Positions 18,307 to 26,834 of a DNA stretch of 64,000 nucleotides are shown one piece after another. A program made the translations under genes and the position numbers. Location: positions 1 through 64,000 of the forward strand of contig JAGXTA010000003.1 in assembly GCA_018333535.1 (NCBI GenBank), written 5' to 3'. How positions within the stretch are numbered: the stretch's first letter is position 1; each line of letters opens with the position of its first letter. Source of the DNA: Deltaproteobacteria bacterium. Lineage in GTDB: Bacteria; Desulfobacterota; BSN033; UBA1163. The notes under the pieces were generated by a model. It was not told the origin of the DNA, did not search any database, and worked only from the letters and a program-made list of their open reading frames with translations.

Positions 18307-18360
18307 AGGCGGGGTTTTTAACCCCGCCTCCAACATAGGCGGGACACGAATGTCCCGCCT
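18307..18360. repeat. two tandem hairpins after the xseA-to-HD operon
   Basis: Hairpin one pairs AGGCGGGGTT (18307-18316) with its complement at 18320-18329 around a TTT loop. Hairpin two pairs AGGCGGGACA (18337-18346) with 18351-18360 around CGAA. Both share the AGGCGGG foot, so they are duplicates. Neither is followed by a T-run, so they are probably REP-like hairpins that could protect the 3' end or stall transcription. Confidence 0.65.
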
Positions 18361-18398: not shown

Positions 18399-18428
18399 TT
18401 GTCTTTGAAGGGTTGACCGTGTTATGAT
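18399..18428 (+). promoter_or_regulatory. candidate promoter of the MoxR/GXGXG/VWA set
   Basis: TTGTCT at 18399-18404 and TATGAT at 18423-18428 are 18 bases apart. Transcription would start about 18435, which leaves only a few bases before an ATG at 18443. Confidence 0.45.
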
Positions 18429-18430
18429 TA

Positions 18431-19804
18431 ATGAAAATTAAAATGAATAACAGAAAGGTTTTAGTCGTGGAAAAGAACGGATATCAGAAACAGGTGATGG
18501 GGATCTACCAATTTATCAGCGACCATCTTTACTTCAATCGACCCGATATCGAAATCAAAGGCGAGCCCTATAATTCCGCCATCCTCTTAAGCCTGCTGAC
18601 CGGCCTGACCAAAGGAAAAGAGCTGATCATCGGAGAACCGGGATTGGGAAAGACGACTTCCGCTGAATTTATCTGTTCATTGGTCTACCAATTTCCGTTG
18701 GGTGTGATCTGGGGAAGTGAAGTTTCAGGCCATCCCGAACAGACCGAGGAAAAAATCATCGGAAGACCCGATCTTGGAAAACTGAACCGGGGGGAGGAAG
18801 ATGTGGTGTGGACCAATTTCTCCCAGGTGCCGGTCAAGATTGTGGATGAGATCAACCGCCTCCCCGAGACCAAACAGAGCATGATCCTCGACGGGGTGGA
18901 CCGGGGAAACTGGGAATACCTGAACGAGATGATCATCAACGACGAATACTGCCTCTTTGCCACCGCCAATTATCAGGACGGAGGGACAAACACGGTCATC
19001 GCACCCTTGGTCGACCGGTTCGATGTCATCGTGGAGTCGAGATATCCTGGCGCCAATCTCTCCTTTCTTATCGGGAAATCCCGTGGGAAGGACCACATCC
19101 TGAGGCATCCCAAATATGAAAAGGACCTCTATCGTATTTTGAAATCGAAGATCGCCTATCAGAAGAAGATTCCGAAACTTGAGGAGATCTGTGACGCCTT
19201 CGGAGAACATGTCCAGGAAACCCTTGGGGTAAAACCCCTTCGGAGAGAAGATCGCGACCGGATCCGAACCGAGATGGGAAGTCTCGACCTGGACCTCGAT
19301 GCCAGCGCTTTTGCACGGATGCTTTTGGCCGAACTCTCCTTCTGCGACCGATACGGCCAGAAGAGAATCGTCGAAAACTGTGAGGAGGGATGCCATTATA
19401 CCGGCTATCTCTGCCGTCAGATCAAGAATTGCGCCTCAAACCGCCTTCCGACTTCCATCAAGCTCTTCTCCCAGGGGCTGGCATGGTTGTTGGGGGATTC
19501 CGAAATCGATATCGAACATGTGAAGGCGGTCATGCCCTTTGCCCTTTCGCACCGGGTCCAGTGGAAGGACGAGATTCTCTCTCAAAAAGAGAAGGCCAAA
19601 CGGGATGATCCTTTCCAGATCTTTCTTGCCAAGGAAGCAGTGAAGACCGTTTCCCAGAGATACCGGGAGCAGAGCGATCATCTGAAGGATGCGCTTGCAC
19701 TCGGATCAAAGATCTTTCAGGGCGAATCCCTGGAGCCCCTGGAAGGAGATCATCCGATTTATACCGAAATCAAGAAAGATATCCGCCATAGAAGAAATTA
19801 TTGA
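18431..19804 (+). CDS. MoxR-type AAA+ ATPase with four-cysteine cluster
   Basis: A 457-residue AAA+ ATPase. Walker A is GEPGLGKTT (68-76), Walker B KIVDEINRL (136-144), and sensor 1 ATAN (178-181). MoxR ATPases act with VWA proteins as chaperones that insert cofactors or remodel complexes. Unusual for the family, the C-terminal half has C317, C321, C328 and C334 spaced CX3CX6CX5C (with C305 nearby), which could bind zinc or an Fe-S cluster. Two starts are possible, ATG 18431 and ATG 18443; the predicted promoter favours 18443. Its stop overlaps the next start (TGATG). The triad with the next two genes points to one complex. Confidence 0.85.
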   Translation: MKIKMNNRKVLVVEKNGYQKQVMGIYQFISDHLYFNRPDIEIKGEPYNSAILLSLLTGLTKGKELIIGEPGLGKTTSAEFICSLVYQFPLGVIWGSEVSGHPEQTEEKIIGRPDLGKLNRGEEDVVWTNFSQVPVKIVDEINRLPETKQSMILDGVDRGNWEYLNEMIINDEYCLFATANYQDGGTNTVIAPLVDRFDVIVESRYPGANLSFLIGKSRGKDHILRHPKYEKDLYRILKSKIAYQKKIPKLEEICDAFGEHVQETLGVKPLRREDRDRIRTEMGSLDLDLDASAFARMLLAELSFCDRYGQKRIVENCEEGCHYTGYLCRQIKNCASNRLPTSIKLFSQGLAWLLGDSEIDIEHVKAVMPFALSHRVQWKDEILSQKEKAKRDDPFQIFLAKEAVKTVSQRYREQSDHLKDALALGSKIFQGESLEPLEGDHPIYTEIKKDIRHRRNY

Positions 19805-20568
19805 TGAAGAACGGTTGTTCAAAGAAGAAGGCTCTCCTTTCTCCTCAGCAAGAGGTCCGAGCTCCCCTTATTAATCCATTCGAAGAATTCAGAGCCTTCC
19901 AATTCAAACATACGGAGATTCCTCTGGACCAGATCGTCCGGTCCACCGAGGCTATCATGGACCAGATTCGTCTGGGGTATGAGAAGCTTCTGGAAGAAGA
20001 AGCAAAGGAACTGGTCTGGATGGTGCAGTATAATACGATCATCAAGGCCTATGAGGTGGCGGAGAAGTATGTTAAGGAGATCGATTATTCCGCGGAAGAT
20101 ATCGAGGATTTTTGCTTTGCTCTCGAAACCCCCCAGAAGGTCCCCTATCTCATTCCAGGGCCAGCGGGAATCTACATCTCCGCATTGTGTAATTATGCGA
20201 AAGAGGAGGAGATCGTTCTAAAGCTTTCGGAGCTGAAGACAGAGATCAATCTCATCGGGTTTAGACTGCCGAGGGGGAAACGTCTGATGGTGGAGGGGGA
20301 TACGGGCGATTTCACGGGCATTGGCCTTGAAGGCGGAGAATTGCTGGTGGAGGGAAACACAAAGAACTGGACCGGAGCAGGGATGAGGGCCGGCAAGATA
20401 CTGGTTAAAAAGAATATCGGCCTCCATACTGGGGAGTGGATGATGGGTGGTGAAATCTACGTGGAAGGAAGGGTAAGGGGGCTTGGAAATATCGTTGAAG
20501 GAAAAGTCTACGAGAGAGATAAGCTTGTTTATCCAGGAAAGGCCCGTTTCCCCAACCAATATTATTAG
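19804..20568 (+). CDS. protein with GXGXG beta-helix C-terminal domain
   Basis: A 254-residue soluble protein. Residues 1-150 are mostly helical and unrecognised. Residues about 160-232 are a GXGXG repeat: GDTGDFTGIGLEGGELLVEG, then NTKNWTGAGMRAGKILVKKN and GLHTGEWMMGGEIYVEG. This right-handed beta-helix is known from the C-terminus of glutamate synthase and from formylmethanofuran dehydrogenase subunit C, where it is a structural partner rather than a catalyst. The preferred start is ATG 19804, overlapping the ATPase stop; TTG 19801 is also possible. It lies between a MoxR ATPase and a VWA protein, so a role as scaffold or substrate of that pair is inferred. Function unknown. Confidence 0.8.
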   Translation: MKNGCSKKKALLSPQQEVRAPLINPFEEFRAFQFKHTEIPLDQIVRSTEAIMDQIRLGYEKLLEEEAKELVWMVQYNTIIKAYEVAEKYVKEIDYSAEDIEDFCFALETPQKVPYLIPGPAGIYISALCNYAKEEEIVLKLSELKTEINLIGFRLPRGKRLMVEGDTGDFTGIGLEGGELLVEGNTKNWTGAGMRAGKILVKKNIGLHTGEWMMGGEIYVEGRVRGLGNIVEGKVYERDKLVYPGKARFPNQYY

Positions 20569-20575
20569 GCGATCC

Positions 20576-22213
20576 ATGGAAGAAAAAAGACTTCAAACCC
20601 TCATTGAAGAGATCTGGCCCCGGCTCAAAAGGAAACATCTCTACCCGGAGATACCCATCCCGAAGGTCGGGAAGGTCAACGATCCTCCGGATGAAGGGAT
20701 GGAAAAGAATGACCCCGCGTTTCGCGGGGTCGGATTGGAGATGAAAGATAAACAGTTGACCATCAACCCGTCATTTCTCTCCACCATGAAGGGCAAGATG
20801 TCGGAGGAGAACCTGATTGAGGCTCTTCTCGATCATGGAATTACTCATTACACCTTCTGCCCATGGGATTTTCAGACCCATCTCGCGCTCTATGCGGAAG
20901 CCAAAAAGGTGATGGGCGATAAAGAGACAGCCAAACAGGCGGCCACTCACTTTATCGATGTCATTGCCGATACCCACTGCGTTAAAAGAAGGGTTACGGA
21001 AATTCCGGAATTGCATCGAAACCTGAAAAAAGGAGCTGTCGAGGAAGTGATCGCCTCTCTTTATCAGAGAATCTGGGGAATCGATCTGGGGATTTCCTCT
21101 CCTAAAAAAGGCAACGAGGAGGTGGTTCGAAGGCTCGCGAGGATTCCTTATCTCGATCGCTCCAGGTGGACTGAAAGCATCCGGAAATTTTCCCGGTCCC
21201 TTAAACCCCTCCTCATCCTTGAGCAGAAGGAAAAGGAATCCGGGGGCGGCAAAGGAGATTCCAACCCCCTGGGGGAACATGATCTGAATCACTATTCGTA
21301 TGAAGAGATCGATCAGGGATTAAGGGATTATGCTCAGAAGACGATGGGACTTTCAGAATTCAAAGAGGTGGTCGAGGATTTTTCTGCTGAGCTGAAAGAG
21401 ATGGGGTATGGAATCGAAGGCGGAATGGGAAGGGGAAGGGGGGCTCCGATTGATGCCGATATTCTCTTTTATATGAAGCTGGCCGAAAATTATTCCATCC
21501 CCCTGAAAAAAATCCCCCTCGAAGAGGCAGGAACCCTCCACCCTCATTCCCATTCCCCGTGGGAAGTTGGGTCCCCGTTCCAGGACATCGACATCTGGAC
21601 CAGTTTTGGGAAAATCATGCCAGGGATCACGCAGATCTGGAAGAAGAAAGAGGGAAAAGGCCGGGGAAAGATCGAAGGGGCGCCGGACTGTCTCATCATC
21701 ATCGATTCGTCCGGGAGCATGATCAATCCTCGGAAAAACCTTTCCTATGCGGTTTTAGGGGCCGCCTGTGTCACCAATGCCTACCTGAGGAACCATTCAA
21801 AGGTGGCGGTCTATAATTTCAGCGATGCCCCTATGGGAGGCCGAGAGGTGCTCGATTATACCACCCACCGTGAAGAAGTCTACCGAACGCTATGCAAATA
21901 TTTCGGAGGTGGAACGGCATTGGATCTCGAAGATATCATGCCCATGATTAAGAAGAAGAAAGAGCTGGATCTCTTCATCATTACGGATATGAAGATTACC
22001 AACTTGGAGACCTTGATCGGGTTCTTCGGAAAGATCCAGAACAGGATCACCGCCGTCCATATCGGAGAAAATCCTTATGCTTCACGATTCGAAAAGGCGG
22101 TGGAGAAAAGAAAGAATATCAACATCTTCACGGTAAAAAAGAAGGAAGATATTCCCCATATTGTTTTAGGAAGCATTCGGGAATATTTTAACCCGATTCA
22201 TAAAGCCCGTTGA
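20576..22213 (+). CDS. VWA-domain protein with DUF2201-like N-terminus
   Basis: A 545-residue cytosolic protein. The C-terminal VWA domain has the MIDAS motif DSSGS at 377-381, a threonine in GGGTALDLED near 447, and the aspartate in LFIITDMKI. The N-terminal half carries LIEALLDHGITHYTFCPWDF, which resembles the metallopeptidase-like region of DUF2201 proteins but lacks a clean HExxH. The open frame extends back to 20483, but the ATG at 20576, seven bases after the upstream stop, avoids overlap. VWA partners of MoxR ATPases recruit client proteins through the MIDAS metal. It completes the triad. Confidence 0.85.
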   Translation: MEEKRLQTLIEEIWPRLKRKHLYPEIPIPKVGKVNDPPDEGMEKNDPAFRGVGLEMKDKQLTINPSFLSTMKGKMSEENLIEALLDHGITHYTFCPWDFQTHLALYAEAKKVMGDKETAKQAATHFIDVIADTHCVKRRVTEIPELHRNLKKGAVEEVIASLYQRIWGIDLGISSPKKGNEEVVRRLARIPYLDRSRWTESIRKFSRSLKPLLILEQKEKESGGGKGDSNPLGEHDLNHYSYEEIDQGLRDYAQKTMGLSEFKEVVEDFSAELKEMGYGIEGGMGRGRGAPIDADILFYMKLAENYSIPLKKIPLEEAGTLHPHSHSPWEVGSPFQDIDIWTSFGKIMPGITQIWKKKEGKGRGKIEGAPDCLIIIDSSGSMINPRKNLSYAVLGAACVTNAYLRNHSKVAVYNFSDAPMGGREVLDYTTHREEVYRTLCKYFGGGTALDLEDIMPMIKKKKELDLFIITDMKITNLETLIGFFGKIQNRITAVHIGENPYASRFEKAVEKRKNINIFTVKKKEDIPHIVLGSIREYFNPIHKAR

Positions 22214-23509: not shown

Positions 23510-23896
23510 ATGAATAACCAAACGACAACAGAAAGAAAGATGGGCATACTTGCCGTTGAAAAGAGGCGGTATCCAAGATATACCGCCGAATTTCCCATGG
23601 ACTATGCACGGATCGATGACAAGGGGACTTATGGCGGAATGGTAGCCAATGTGAGCGAAGGAGGGTTATTGGTCTACCTACCCCAACGGATGGAGATGGG
23701 ATCTGTCTTAAAAATCGAAATCCTTTATGTCCAGGGTTTGGAATTTAACACGATCAAGGCTGTTGCCAAAATCGTTTGGTCTGACCTGACGGCAAAAGAG
23801 AGCTACGGAGAGTATCGGTATGGTCTGCAATTTCTCCATATCGAAGAGAAGGAATTCGACAGATTGATCAATCTGCTAAAGGAGATCGGTAAATGA
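23510..23896 (+). CDS. PilZ domain protein 1
   Basis: A 128-residue single-domain PilZ protein. The c-di-GMP binding elements are both present: RRYPR (an RxxxR motif, about residues 19-23) and NVSEGG (the D/NxSxxG motif, about 46-51). Such small proteins act as c-di-GMP receptors for motility, pili or exopolysaccharide. There is no clear Shine-Dalgarno before ATG 23510; an internal ATG at 23540 would still keep the whole domain. Sigma-54-like sites lie upstream. Two paralogs follow downstream on the same strand. Confidence 0.92.
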   Translation: MNNQTTTERKMGILAVEKRRYPRYTAEFPMDYARIDDKGTYGGMVANVSEGGLLVYLPQRMEMGSVLKIEILYVQGLEFNTIKAVAKIVWSDLTAKESYGEYRYGLQFLHIEEKEFDRLINLLKEIGK

Positions 23897-26044: not shown

Positions 26045-26434
26045 ATGGAGAAGTTGAAATCGATGAATGACAGAAGAAAATCCCAGAGAATGATACTGGA
26101 CTTGCCCCTTGAATACCGCGTGATGGATGCGACTTATGGCCACGGAGGATTAGTGGTCAATGCAAGTGAACTGGGACTCCTTGTTCAATCTATAAAAAAC
26201 CTCCCCATTGGGACAAAATTAAATATAGCGGTCTTATTCCCCAAGGGATTTGAATTGGCCAACTTCGAAGTTCTGGCAGAGATCATCTGGAAGGACCTCC
26301 ATTGGGAAGAGGATTGGGAGGGATATAAGTACGGGTTAAGATTCCTGCAGATTCTCGATAACGAGTATTGGAAATTAAAACAGCTATTAGACGACCAATT
26401 TCATTTGGAGGAGGTCCAGCGAAATTATCGATAG
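26045..26434 (+). CDS. PilZ domain protein 2
   Basis: A 129-residue PilZ protein. RRKSQR gives RxxxR near residues 11-15 and NASELG gives NxSxxG near 38-43. The basic and glycine positions needed for c-di-GMP are kept, but the second motif has L where the two paralogs have G. GGAGGAACGGA precedes the ATG, and the gene begins 23 bases after the FeS-fusion gene, so the two are likely co-transcribed. Confidence 0.92.
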   Translation: MEKLKSMNDRRKSQRMILDLPLEYRVMDATYGHGGLVVNASELGLLVQSIKNLPIGTKLNIAVLFPKGFELANFEVLAEIIWKDLHWEEDWEGYKYGLRFLQILDNEYWKLKQLLDDQFHLEEVQRNYR

Positions 26435-26447
26435 GGACAGGGGGGGG

Positions 26448-26834
26448 ATGACAGAGAAAAAGAATGGAAAACCTCGCATCGGAATTGCCAATATTGAAAG
26501 AAGGAAGTACCCGCGCTTTTCAATCGACCTGCCGATAGAATACCATTCAATCAGCTCTCCCGTCAGCCATGCCGGCCGGGCGCTCAATGCGAGCGAAGGA
26601 GGATTGCTGGTGTACCTTCCGGAAAAGATGACCGTCGGCCAACACCTTGCCCTGAAGCTCTTCTTCCACTGCGGCGCTCAAATGAATATCATCGAGATGA
26701 CAGGAGAAGTCATCTGGATGGATATCCACCTGGACATGAACTGGGGGGATTATCGAACGGGCTTGAAGCTGATTGATATCTCTCCCGAAAATGTTCAACG
26801 ACTGAAAGACTTCCTGCTATCCCTTACAAAGTAA
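26448..26834 (+). CDS. PilZ domain protein 3
   Basis: A 128-residue PilZ protein, closest to PilZ protein 1: both share a NASEGG or NVSEGG followed by LLVYLP and an internal GDYR or GEYR step. RRKYPR (RxxxR) and NASEGG are intact. It starts 13 bases after PilZ 2 behind a G-rich ribosome binding site. The series of three points to duplication and divergence around the fusion gene at 24117. Confidence 0.92.
   Translation: MTEKKNGKPRIGIANIERRKYPRFSIDLPIEYHSISSPVSHAGRALNASEGGLLVYLPEKMTVGQHLALKLFFHCGAQMNIIEMTGEVIWMDIHLDMNWGDYRTGLKLIDISPENVQRLKDFLLSLTK

Follow-up and report, generated by a model that had tools for sequence, protein, structure and literature searches.

Pairs of a MoxR-type AAA+ ATPase and a VWA protein are often encoded beside the client on which they act, as in the cases of NorQD, CoxDE and CbbQO (PMC9976466). 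Of these, NorQ and NorD serve the insertion of FeB into cNOR (PMC13036017, PMC9976466). In the solved structure of NorQD, which has been studied best, the VWA finger of NorD sits in the NorQ ring and the N-terminal domain binds the ring, and it has been proposed that ATP-driven rotation stretches the linker and opens the client for iron insertion (PMC13036017). RavA-ViaA of E. coli is a self-contained MoxR-VWA module that is not encoded beside its clients (PMC3893208, PMC10585395), and ternary MoxR-vWA conflict systems were described in which the third component is VMAP, iSTAND, FtsH or a beta-propeller (PMC7159879). Here, we analyzed three adjacent genes for a MoxR-type ATPase, a GXGXG beta-helix protein and a VWA protein, found in a stretch of 64,000 nucleotides (nt) of contig JAGXTA010000003.1 from Deltaproteobacteria bacterium (GCA_018333535.1); this whole stretch is referred to as the window, and all positions are given in it. 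The repeat in the C-terminal half of the GXGXG protein is the same as that of FwdC/FmdC/FhcC, the beta-helix subunit found in the complexes of formylmethanofuran dehydrogenase and of formyltransferase/hydrolase.

Like NorD, the VWA protein of the trio is composed of an N-terminal domain, a flexible linker and a C-terminal VWA domain with a metal ion-dependent adhesion site (MIDAS) (PMC13036017). NorQD, however, contains no beta-helix third subunit, and the trio is further set apart by a Cys motif in MoxR and an HxxxH motif in the VWA protein that are present in all of its members. In the loci examined, the trio has no linked nor operon, and thus does not show the linkage of NorQ/NorD (no nor genes were noted among the called neighbors in the window or in these loci, and only some of these neighbors were profile-searched). 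Unlike NorQD, CoxDE and CbbQO, it has no linked client either. In not lying beside its clients, it is similar to RavA-ViaA, a comparison that holds at the general MoxR-VWA level only, while RavA-ViaA as described lacks a third beta-helix gene. In agreement with the initial annotation, which knew of no described system with this trio, no paper describing it was found in the openly licensed literature. A MoxR-VWA pair with a third protein is in itself already known (PMC7159879), and what is new is this particular third protein. Since the three genes are found jointly or are jointly absent in two phyla, their products very likely make up a single three-part machine. Considering all of the analyses, we favor, with moderate confidence, the explanation that the trio is a NorQD-like machine for remodeling or cofactor insertion, in which the beta-helix protein would be an obligate third subunit.

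Co-occurrence and gene order of the trio

A single set of 297 genomes from the window's phylum was searched with one profile for each of the three proteins, with a threshold of E<=1e-20 for MoxR. Matches to VWA and to MoxR and trio-type matches to GXGXG were each found in the same 35 genomes, belonging to 14 families, and none of the genomes has a part of the trio without the others. This count should be read with the shared ancestry of these genomes in mind, as they do not represent 35 independent events. The initial annotation had stated that the trio would be incidental if the GXGXG gene were absent from most loci carrying the MoxR-VWA pair; for this MoxR-VWA subfamily, the distribution over the 297 genomes is instead all-or-none. 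Further GXGXG matches in these genomes score low, with no more than about 51 bits, and almost all of them are restricted to the repeat. Many belong to long reading frames (870-940 residues), which is what proteins of the glutamate synthase type would give. When genome contigs were first scanned for the GXGXG protein, 24 loci were obtained, 23 of which carry the full trio in the same order and orientation, the other being a truncated contig.

The survey covered two phyla and a sample of Chloroflexota. In Latescibacterota, the VWA protein was found in 17 of 64 genomes, and the 10 loci that were fetched show the order MoxR-GXGXG-VWA, one without MoxR. The contig of this last locus (genome G328) begins about 250 bases before the GXGXG match, and no MoxR match was found elsewhere in the draft assembly. 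None of the 151 Chloroflexota genomes sampled contains the VWA protein. A contig with a truncated MoxR-GXGXG pair that is 75-77% identical to the window, from a metagenome-assembled genome labeled Dehalococcoidia, Chloroflexota (L025/G299), is thus probably misbinned.

Four divergent copies of the trio (genomes G004, G038, G136 and G163) form clade II, as distinguished from clade I, and present the order MoxR-VWA-GXGXG or a remnant of it. Two of these genomes, G004 and G163, harbor both clades. The single-contig genome G038 has VWA next to GXGXG, with MoxR present but about 330 kb away. In G163, the VWA gene of clade II is divided between two contig ends, with MoxR beside the N-terminal piece. 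Altogether, of 76 non-identical loci (some being near-duplicates), 71 are ordered MoxR-GXGXG-VWA, two show the full clade II order and three have no linked MoxR, two of the latter lying at contig ends. Since the clade II order differs and MoxR of G038 is unlinked yet present, the trio persists through rearrangement and even unlinking. The three proteins yield concordant trees (patristic r of 0.93-0.96 for 49 loci), the mean column identity of the proteins across the two phyla is 72-78%, and architecture and length are uniform in all loci seen. In a plasmid collection, no match was found for the VWA proteins of either clade.

Within the window, the three genes lie on the same strand at the coordinates initially annotated (18431-22213), and the overlaps or gaps of a few bases were likewise confirmed: the stop codon of MoxR (TGA, 19802-19804) overlaps the start codon of GXGXG (ATG, 19804) by 1 nt, and the stop of GXGXG (20568) and the ATG of VWA (20576) are 7 nt apart. 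For VWA, the TTG at 20483 is merely where the reading frame begins mechanically. The single promoter candidate that had been suggested for the three genes was not supported, as the region has about as many promoter-like sites as its shuffles (7 vs. 5.2); the candidate at 18399-18428 ends 2 nt ahead of the MoxR ATG. Between the upstream HD-domain gene and the MoxR gene, we also observed a near-perfect palindrome, GGCGGGACACGAATGTCCCGCC (18338-18359), of which the window has a single copy; it may represent a terminator or else a dispersed repeat.

Domain composition and conserved motifs

At the level of sequence comparison, the obligate nature of the trio is established together with its domain composition and conserved motifs, which are summarized in Table 1. 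Scans of Pfam, NCBIfam and PADLOC revealed no named family that covers the whole trio; in PADLOC, MoxR and VWA had no match and the GXGXG protein had only marginal ones (E about 0.01). Solved structures gave no sequence match for MoxR or the VWA protein at the thresholds used.

Table 1 Features of the trio in the window, with the evidence for each.
Feature	Coordinates	Strand	Evidence
MoxR-type AAA+ ATPase, 457 residues	18431..19804	+	Pfam AAA_5 over cut-off, AAA_lid_2 near cut-off; same-family matches in exactly 35/297 genomes
Walker A, GEPGLGKT (residues 68-75)	18632..18655	+	Alignment; all 41 distinct members of the family have the P-loop
Walker B, IVDEINR (residues 137-143)	18839..18859	+	Alignment; 40/41 members
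Cys motif before the AAA lid, C305, C317, C321-H322, C328 (and C334 in clade I), putative Zn or iron-sulfur (Fe-S) site	19343..19432	+	Pattern in 41/41
GXGXG protein, 254 residues, helical N-terminal domain (25-130) and FwdC-like beta-helix	19804..20568	+	TIGR03122, FwdC PDB chains, predicted model
Beta-strand/beta-helix part (residues 136-243)	20209..20532	+	Predicted secondary structure, FwdC/glutamate synthase matches
VWA protein, 545 residues, with a helical N-terminal domain, a linker modeled at low confidence (about 280-366) and a C-terminal VWA domain	20576..22213	+	VWA_2, predicted model
HGITH (residues 87-91), degenerate HExxH-like motif of the N-terminal domain	20834..20848	+	HxxxH in 77/77 members
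MIDAS motif DSSGS (residues 377-381)	21704..21718	+	D[ST]SGS in 74/77 members

The first protein presents the core features of the MoxR class, namely AAA_5, both Walker motifs and sensor-2/lid features, and its annotation as a MoxR AAA+ ATPase thus stands. AAA_3 falls under the cut-off for MoxR of the window as well as of clade II, while AAA_lid_2 scores 20.0 bits in the window (cut-off 22.7) as compared to 43.1 bits in clade II. Just ahead of the lid domain, all 41 distinct members from both clades share the pattern C-x(8-13)-C-x(2-3)-CH-x5-C, which might bind zinc, coordinate an Fe-S cluster or act as a redox switch. This conservation refers to the trio MoxR family; the two loci intended as generic MoxR controls (L001 and L002) are NtrC-type proteins.

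The GXGXG tail of the second protein was corroborated by matches to the FwdC profile TIGR03122 (E=1.3e-21, 77 bits) and to solved FwdC chains (best E 2e-16), and the beta-rich C-terminal part also resembles FwdC weakly by fold. As 77 bits is below the curated cut-off of 130.65, the protein is, judged by its sequence, a related beta-helix and not a member of FwdC/FhcC (TIGR03122). It further differs from FwdC/FmdC/FhcC in its helical N-terminal domain and in having no linked Fwd/Fhc partners. Two Cys residues, C104 and C129, are invariant in the GXGXG proteins of clade I. The window genome contains no other GXGXG-type match at E<=1e-6, and therefore no FwdC.

In the third protein, the VWA_2 profile matches 17 of 17 members, with the match of the window protein being below the cut-off, and the intact DSSGS MIDAS initially annotated was confirmed. 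The three exceptions to the MIDAS pattern consist of one locus masked as N, which was counted twice, and one DSSAS. The DUF2201-like label of this protein, on the other hand, should be dropped, as none of 17 clade I members matches DUF2201, a VWA-like domain, or DUF2201_N, a putative metallopeptidase domain; in clade II, two members match DUF2201 (PF09967/PF13203) at E=0.05, below the cut-off. The linker is conserved in sequence and modeled with low confidence. The model of the VWA domain best matches the VWA domain of NorD (Z 15.1, root-mean-square deviation 3.5 Å over 195 residues). In the N-terminal domain, the invariant HxxxH is followed downstream by a conserved Asp-Val pair. The motif reads HHELNH, a full HExxH, in clade II, whereas clade I has Gly or Ala in place of Glu (HGxxH/HAxxH). 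From this motif, the HxxxH may be a metal site of peptidase ancestry whose catalytic Glu was lost in clade I. No metallopeptidase was found among the fold matches of the VWA model, in which the N-terminal part was barely probed.

Genes surrounding the trio

In the closest relatives, the trio is preceded by a conserved HD-domain gene, while in other lineages its neighbors are a penicillin-binding protein, Lon protease, UvrA, adenine deaminase, or Ku with an ATP-dependent ligase. As the neighboring genes vary between lineages, no linked client emerges. Ku and an ATP-dependent DNA ligase gene, which follow the clade II trio of G136 within 22 bases and on the same strand (L057 4411-7011), were seen only there among the loci examined. 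In G020, a second, different MoxR-VWA pair, which from reading only we take to be CoxD/CoxE-like, precedes the trio at a distance of about 3 kb (L065 231-2585). Two genomes of family f22 carry, downstream of the trio, a gene cluster (L065 9439-15413 and L067 9589-13932), presumably of acyl-CoA dehydrogenase and electron-transfer flavoprotein genes, as judged from reading. Downstream of the trio in the window itself, three small paralogues of about 128 residues that cluster together (23510-23896, 26045-26434 and 26448-26834) resemble, to our reading only, PilZ-type domains.

Possible roles of the trio

If the trio is a NorQD-like machine, MoxR would form an AAA+ ring, in or on which the VWA protein would dock through its VWA domain. 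ATP hydrolysis would then move the VWA domain against the N-terminal domain of the same protein, so straining a bound client, with the FwdC-like beta-helix protein serving as an obligate third subunit, either as a client-recognizing adaptor or as a platform. The Cys motif of MoxR and the HxxxH site of the VWA protein would bind a metal or a cluster, and the task of the machine would be the maturation of, or metal insertion into, a client encoded elsewhere in the genome. In favor of this explanation are the all-or-none distribution, the congruent trees, the likeness of the VWA domain to that of NorD, the invariant HxxxH and Cys motifs, and the variation of the neighboring genes between lineages. 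Complex formation, ATP-driven remodeling, metal binding and the adaptor role are all steps that we infer. A more specific form of this scheme, in which a disarmed peptidase-like domain has been taken over by the VWA subunit to carry metal, the MoxR ring carries a cluster or zinc site and the beta-helix is a dedicated client receptor, such that the three subunits make up an AAA+ metallocofactor-insertion machine, is offered as a tentative possibility.

Several points weigh against a NorQD-like machine and need to be considered. No client emerged from the analyses. In the models, the likeness to NorD is at the fold level only and is common to VWA domains: other VWA chains, such as Rpn10 and Rea1, lie within 1 Z unit of the NorD match, which therefore shows fold and not family. 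The AlphaFold models, made of whole proteins, are of middling confidence, with predicted local distance difference test scores (pLDDT) of 72 and 69. Finally, neither a Pfam family nor a solved chain matches the N-terminal domain of the VWA protein by sequence, and its putative zincin-like nature is read from a motif.

The main alternative, which we find doubtful, assigns the role of client to the GXGXG protein, which would be folded, assembled or metallated by MoxR and VWA before serving as an enzyme subunit like FwdC. Its FwdC-like beta-helix would fit such a role, as would the frequent proximity of MoxR-VWA pairs to their client genes (NorQD, CoxDE, CbbQO; PMC9976466). However, none of the lineages examined has a gene for a partner enzyme subunit linked to the trio, and FwdC is absent from the window genome by the search described above. 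Moreover, the conserved Cys and His residues that resemble metal sites are located in MoxR and VWA, with the GXGXG protein having C104 and C129 in clade I. The initial annotation regarded the GXGXG protein as the obvious client or adaptor. As this protein always accompanies the pair and no other linked gene is conserved, it is likelier to be a subunit or adaptor than a dispensable client.

It is improbable that the trio is a defense-like conflict system related to those with VMAP, iSTAND, FtsH or beta-propeller components. The logic of MoxR, vWA and one obligate third component is indeed the same (PMC7159879). The third part of the trio, however, is a beta-helix, whereas the described third components, like any PADLOC match to MoxR or VWA, are absent. 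Variable effector domains are also lacking, the uniform architecture and length, high column identity and congruent trees reported above indicate strong conservation, and the phyletic pattern is different. With neither the third components nor the effectors of these systems, and being so strongly conserved, the trio is not one of their members.

Still less probable is the possibility that the trio matures a tungsten or molybdenum enzyme of the aldehyde:ferredoxin oxidoreductase (AOR) family. Within the window's phylum, AOR is found in 35 of 35 genomes with the trio, as compared to 198 of the 262 others (Fisher p=1e-4, uncorrected for ancestry), but in none of the 17 trio-bearing Latescibacterota genomes, and AOR was thus rejected as a general client. 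Incidental adjacency of a MoxR-VWA pair and an unrelated beta-helix gene is practically dismissed by the all-or-none distribution and the persistence of the trio through changes in gene order.

MoxR-VWA machines are widespread, while little is understood of how they work and of what their clients are. With an obligate third subunit, the presence of which strictly tracks that of the pair, target recognition by such a machine would become directly accessible. The contrast between HExxH in one clade and HGxxH/HAxxH in the other suggests a route by which a peptidase-like domain may have been turned into a component of an AAA+ machine that binds metal or protein. Being self-contained and conserved in two phyla, the trio presents a well-defined target for biochemistry.

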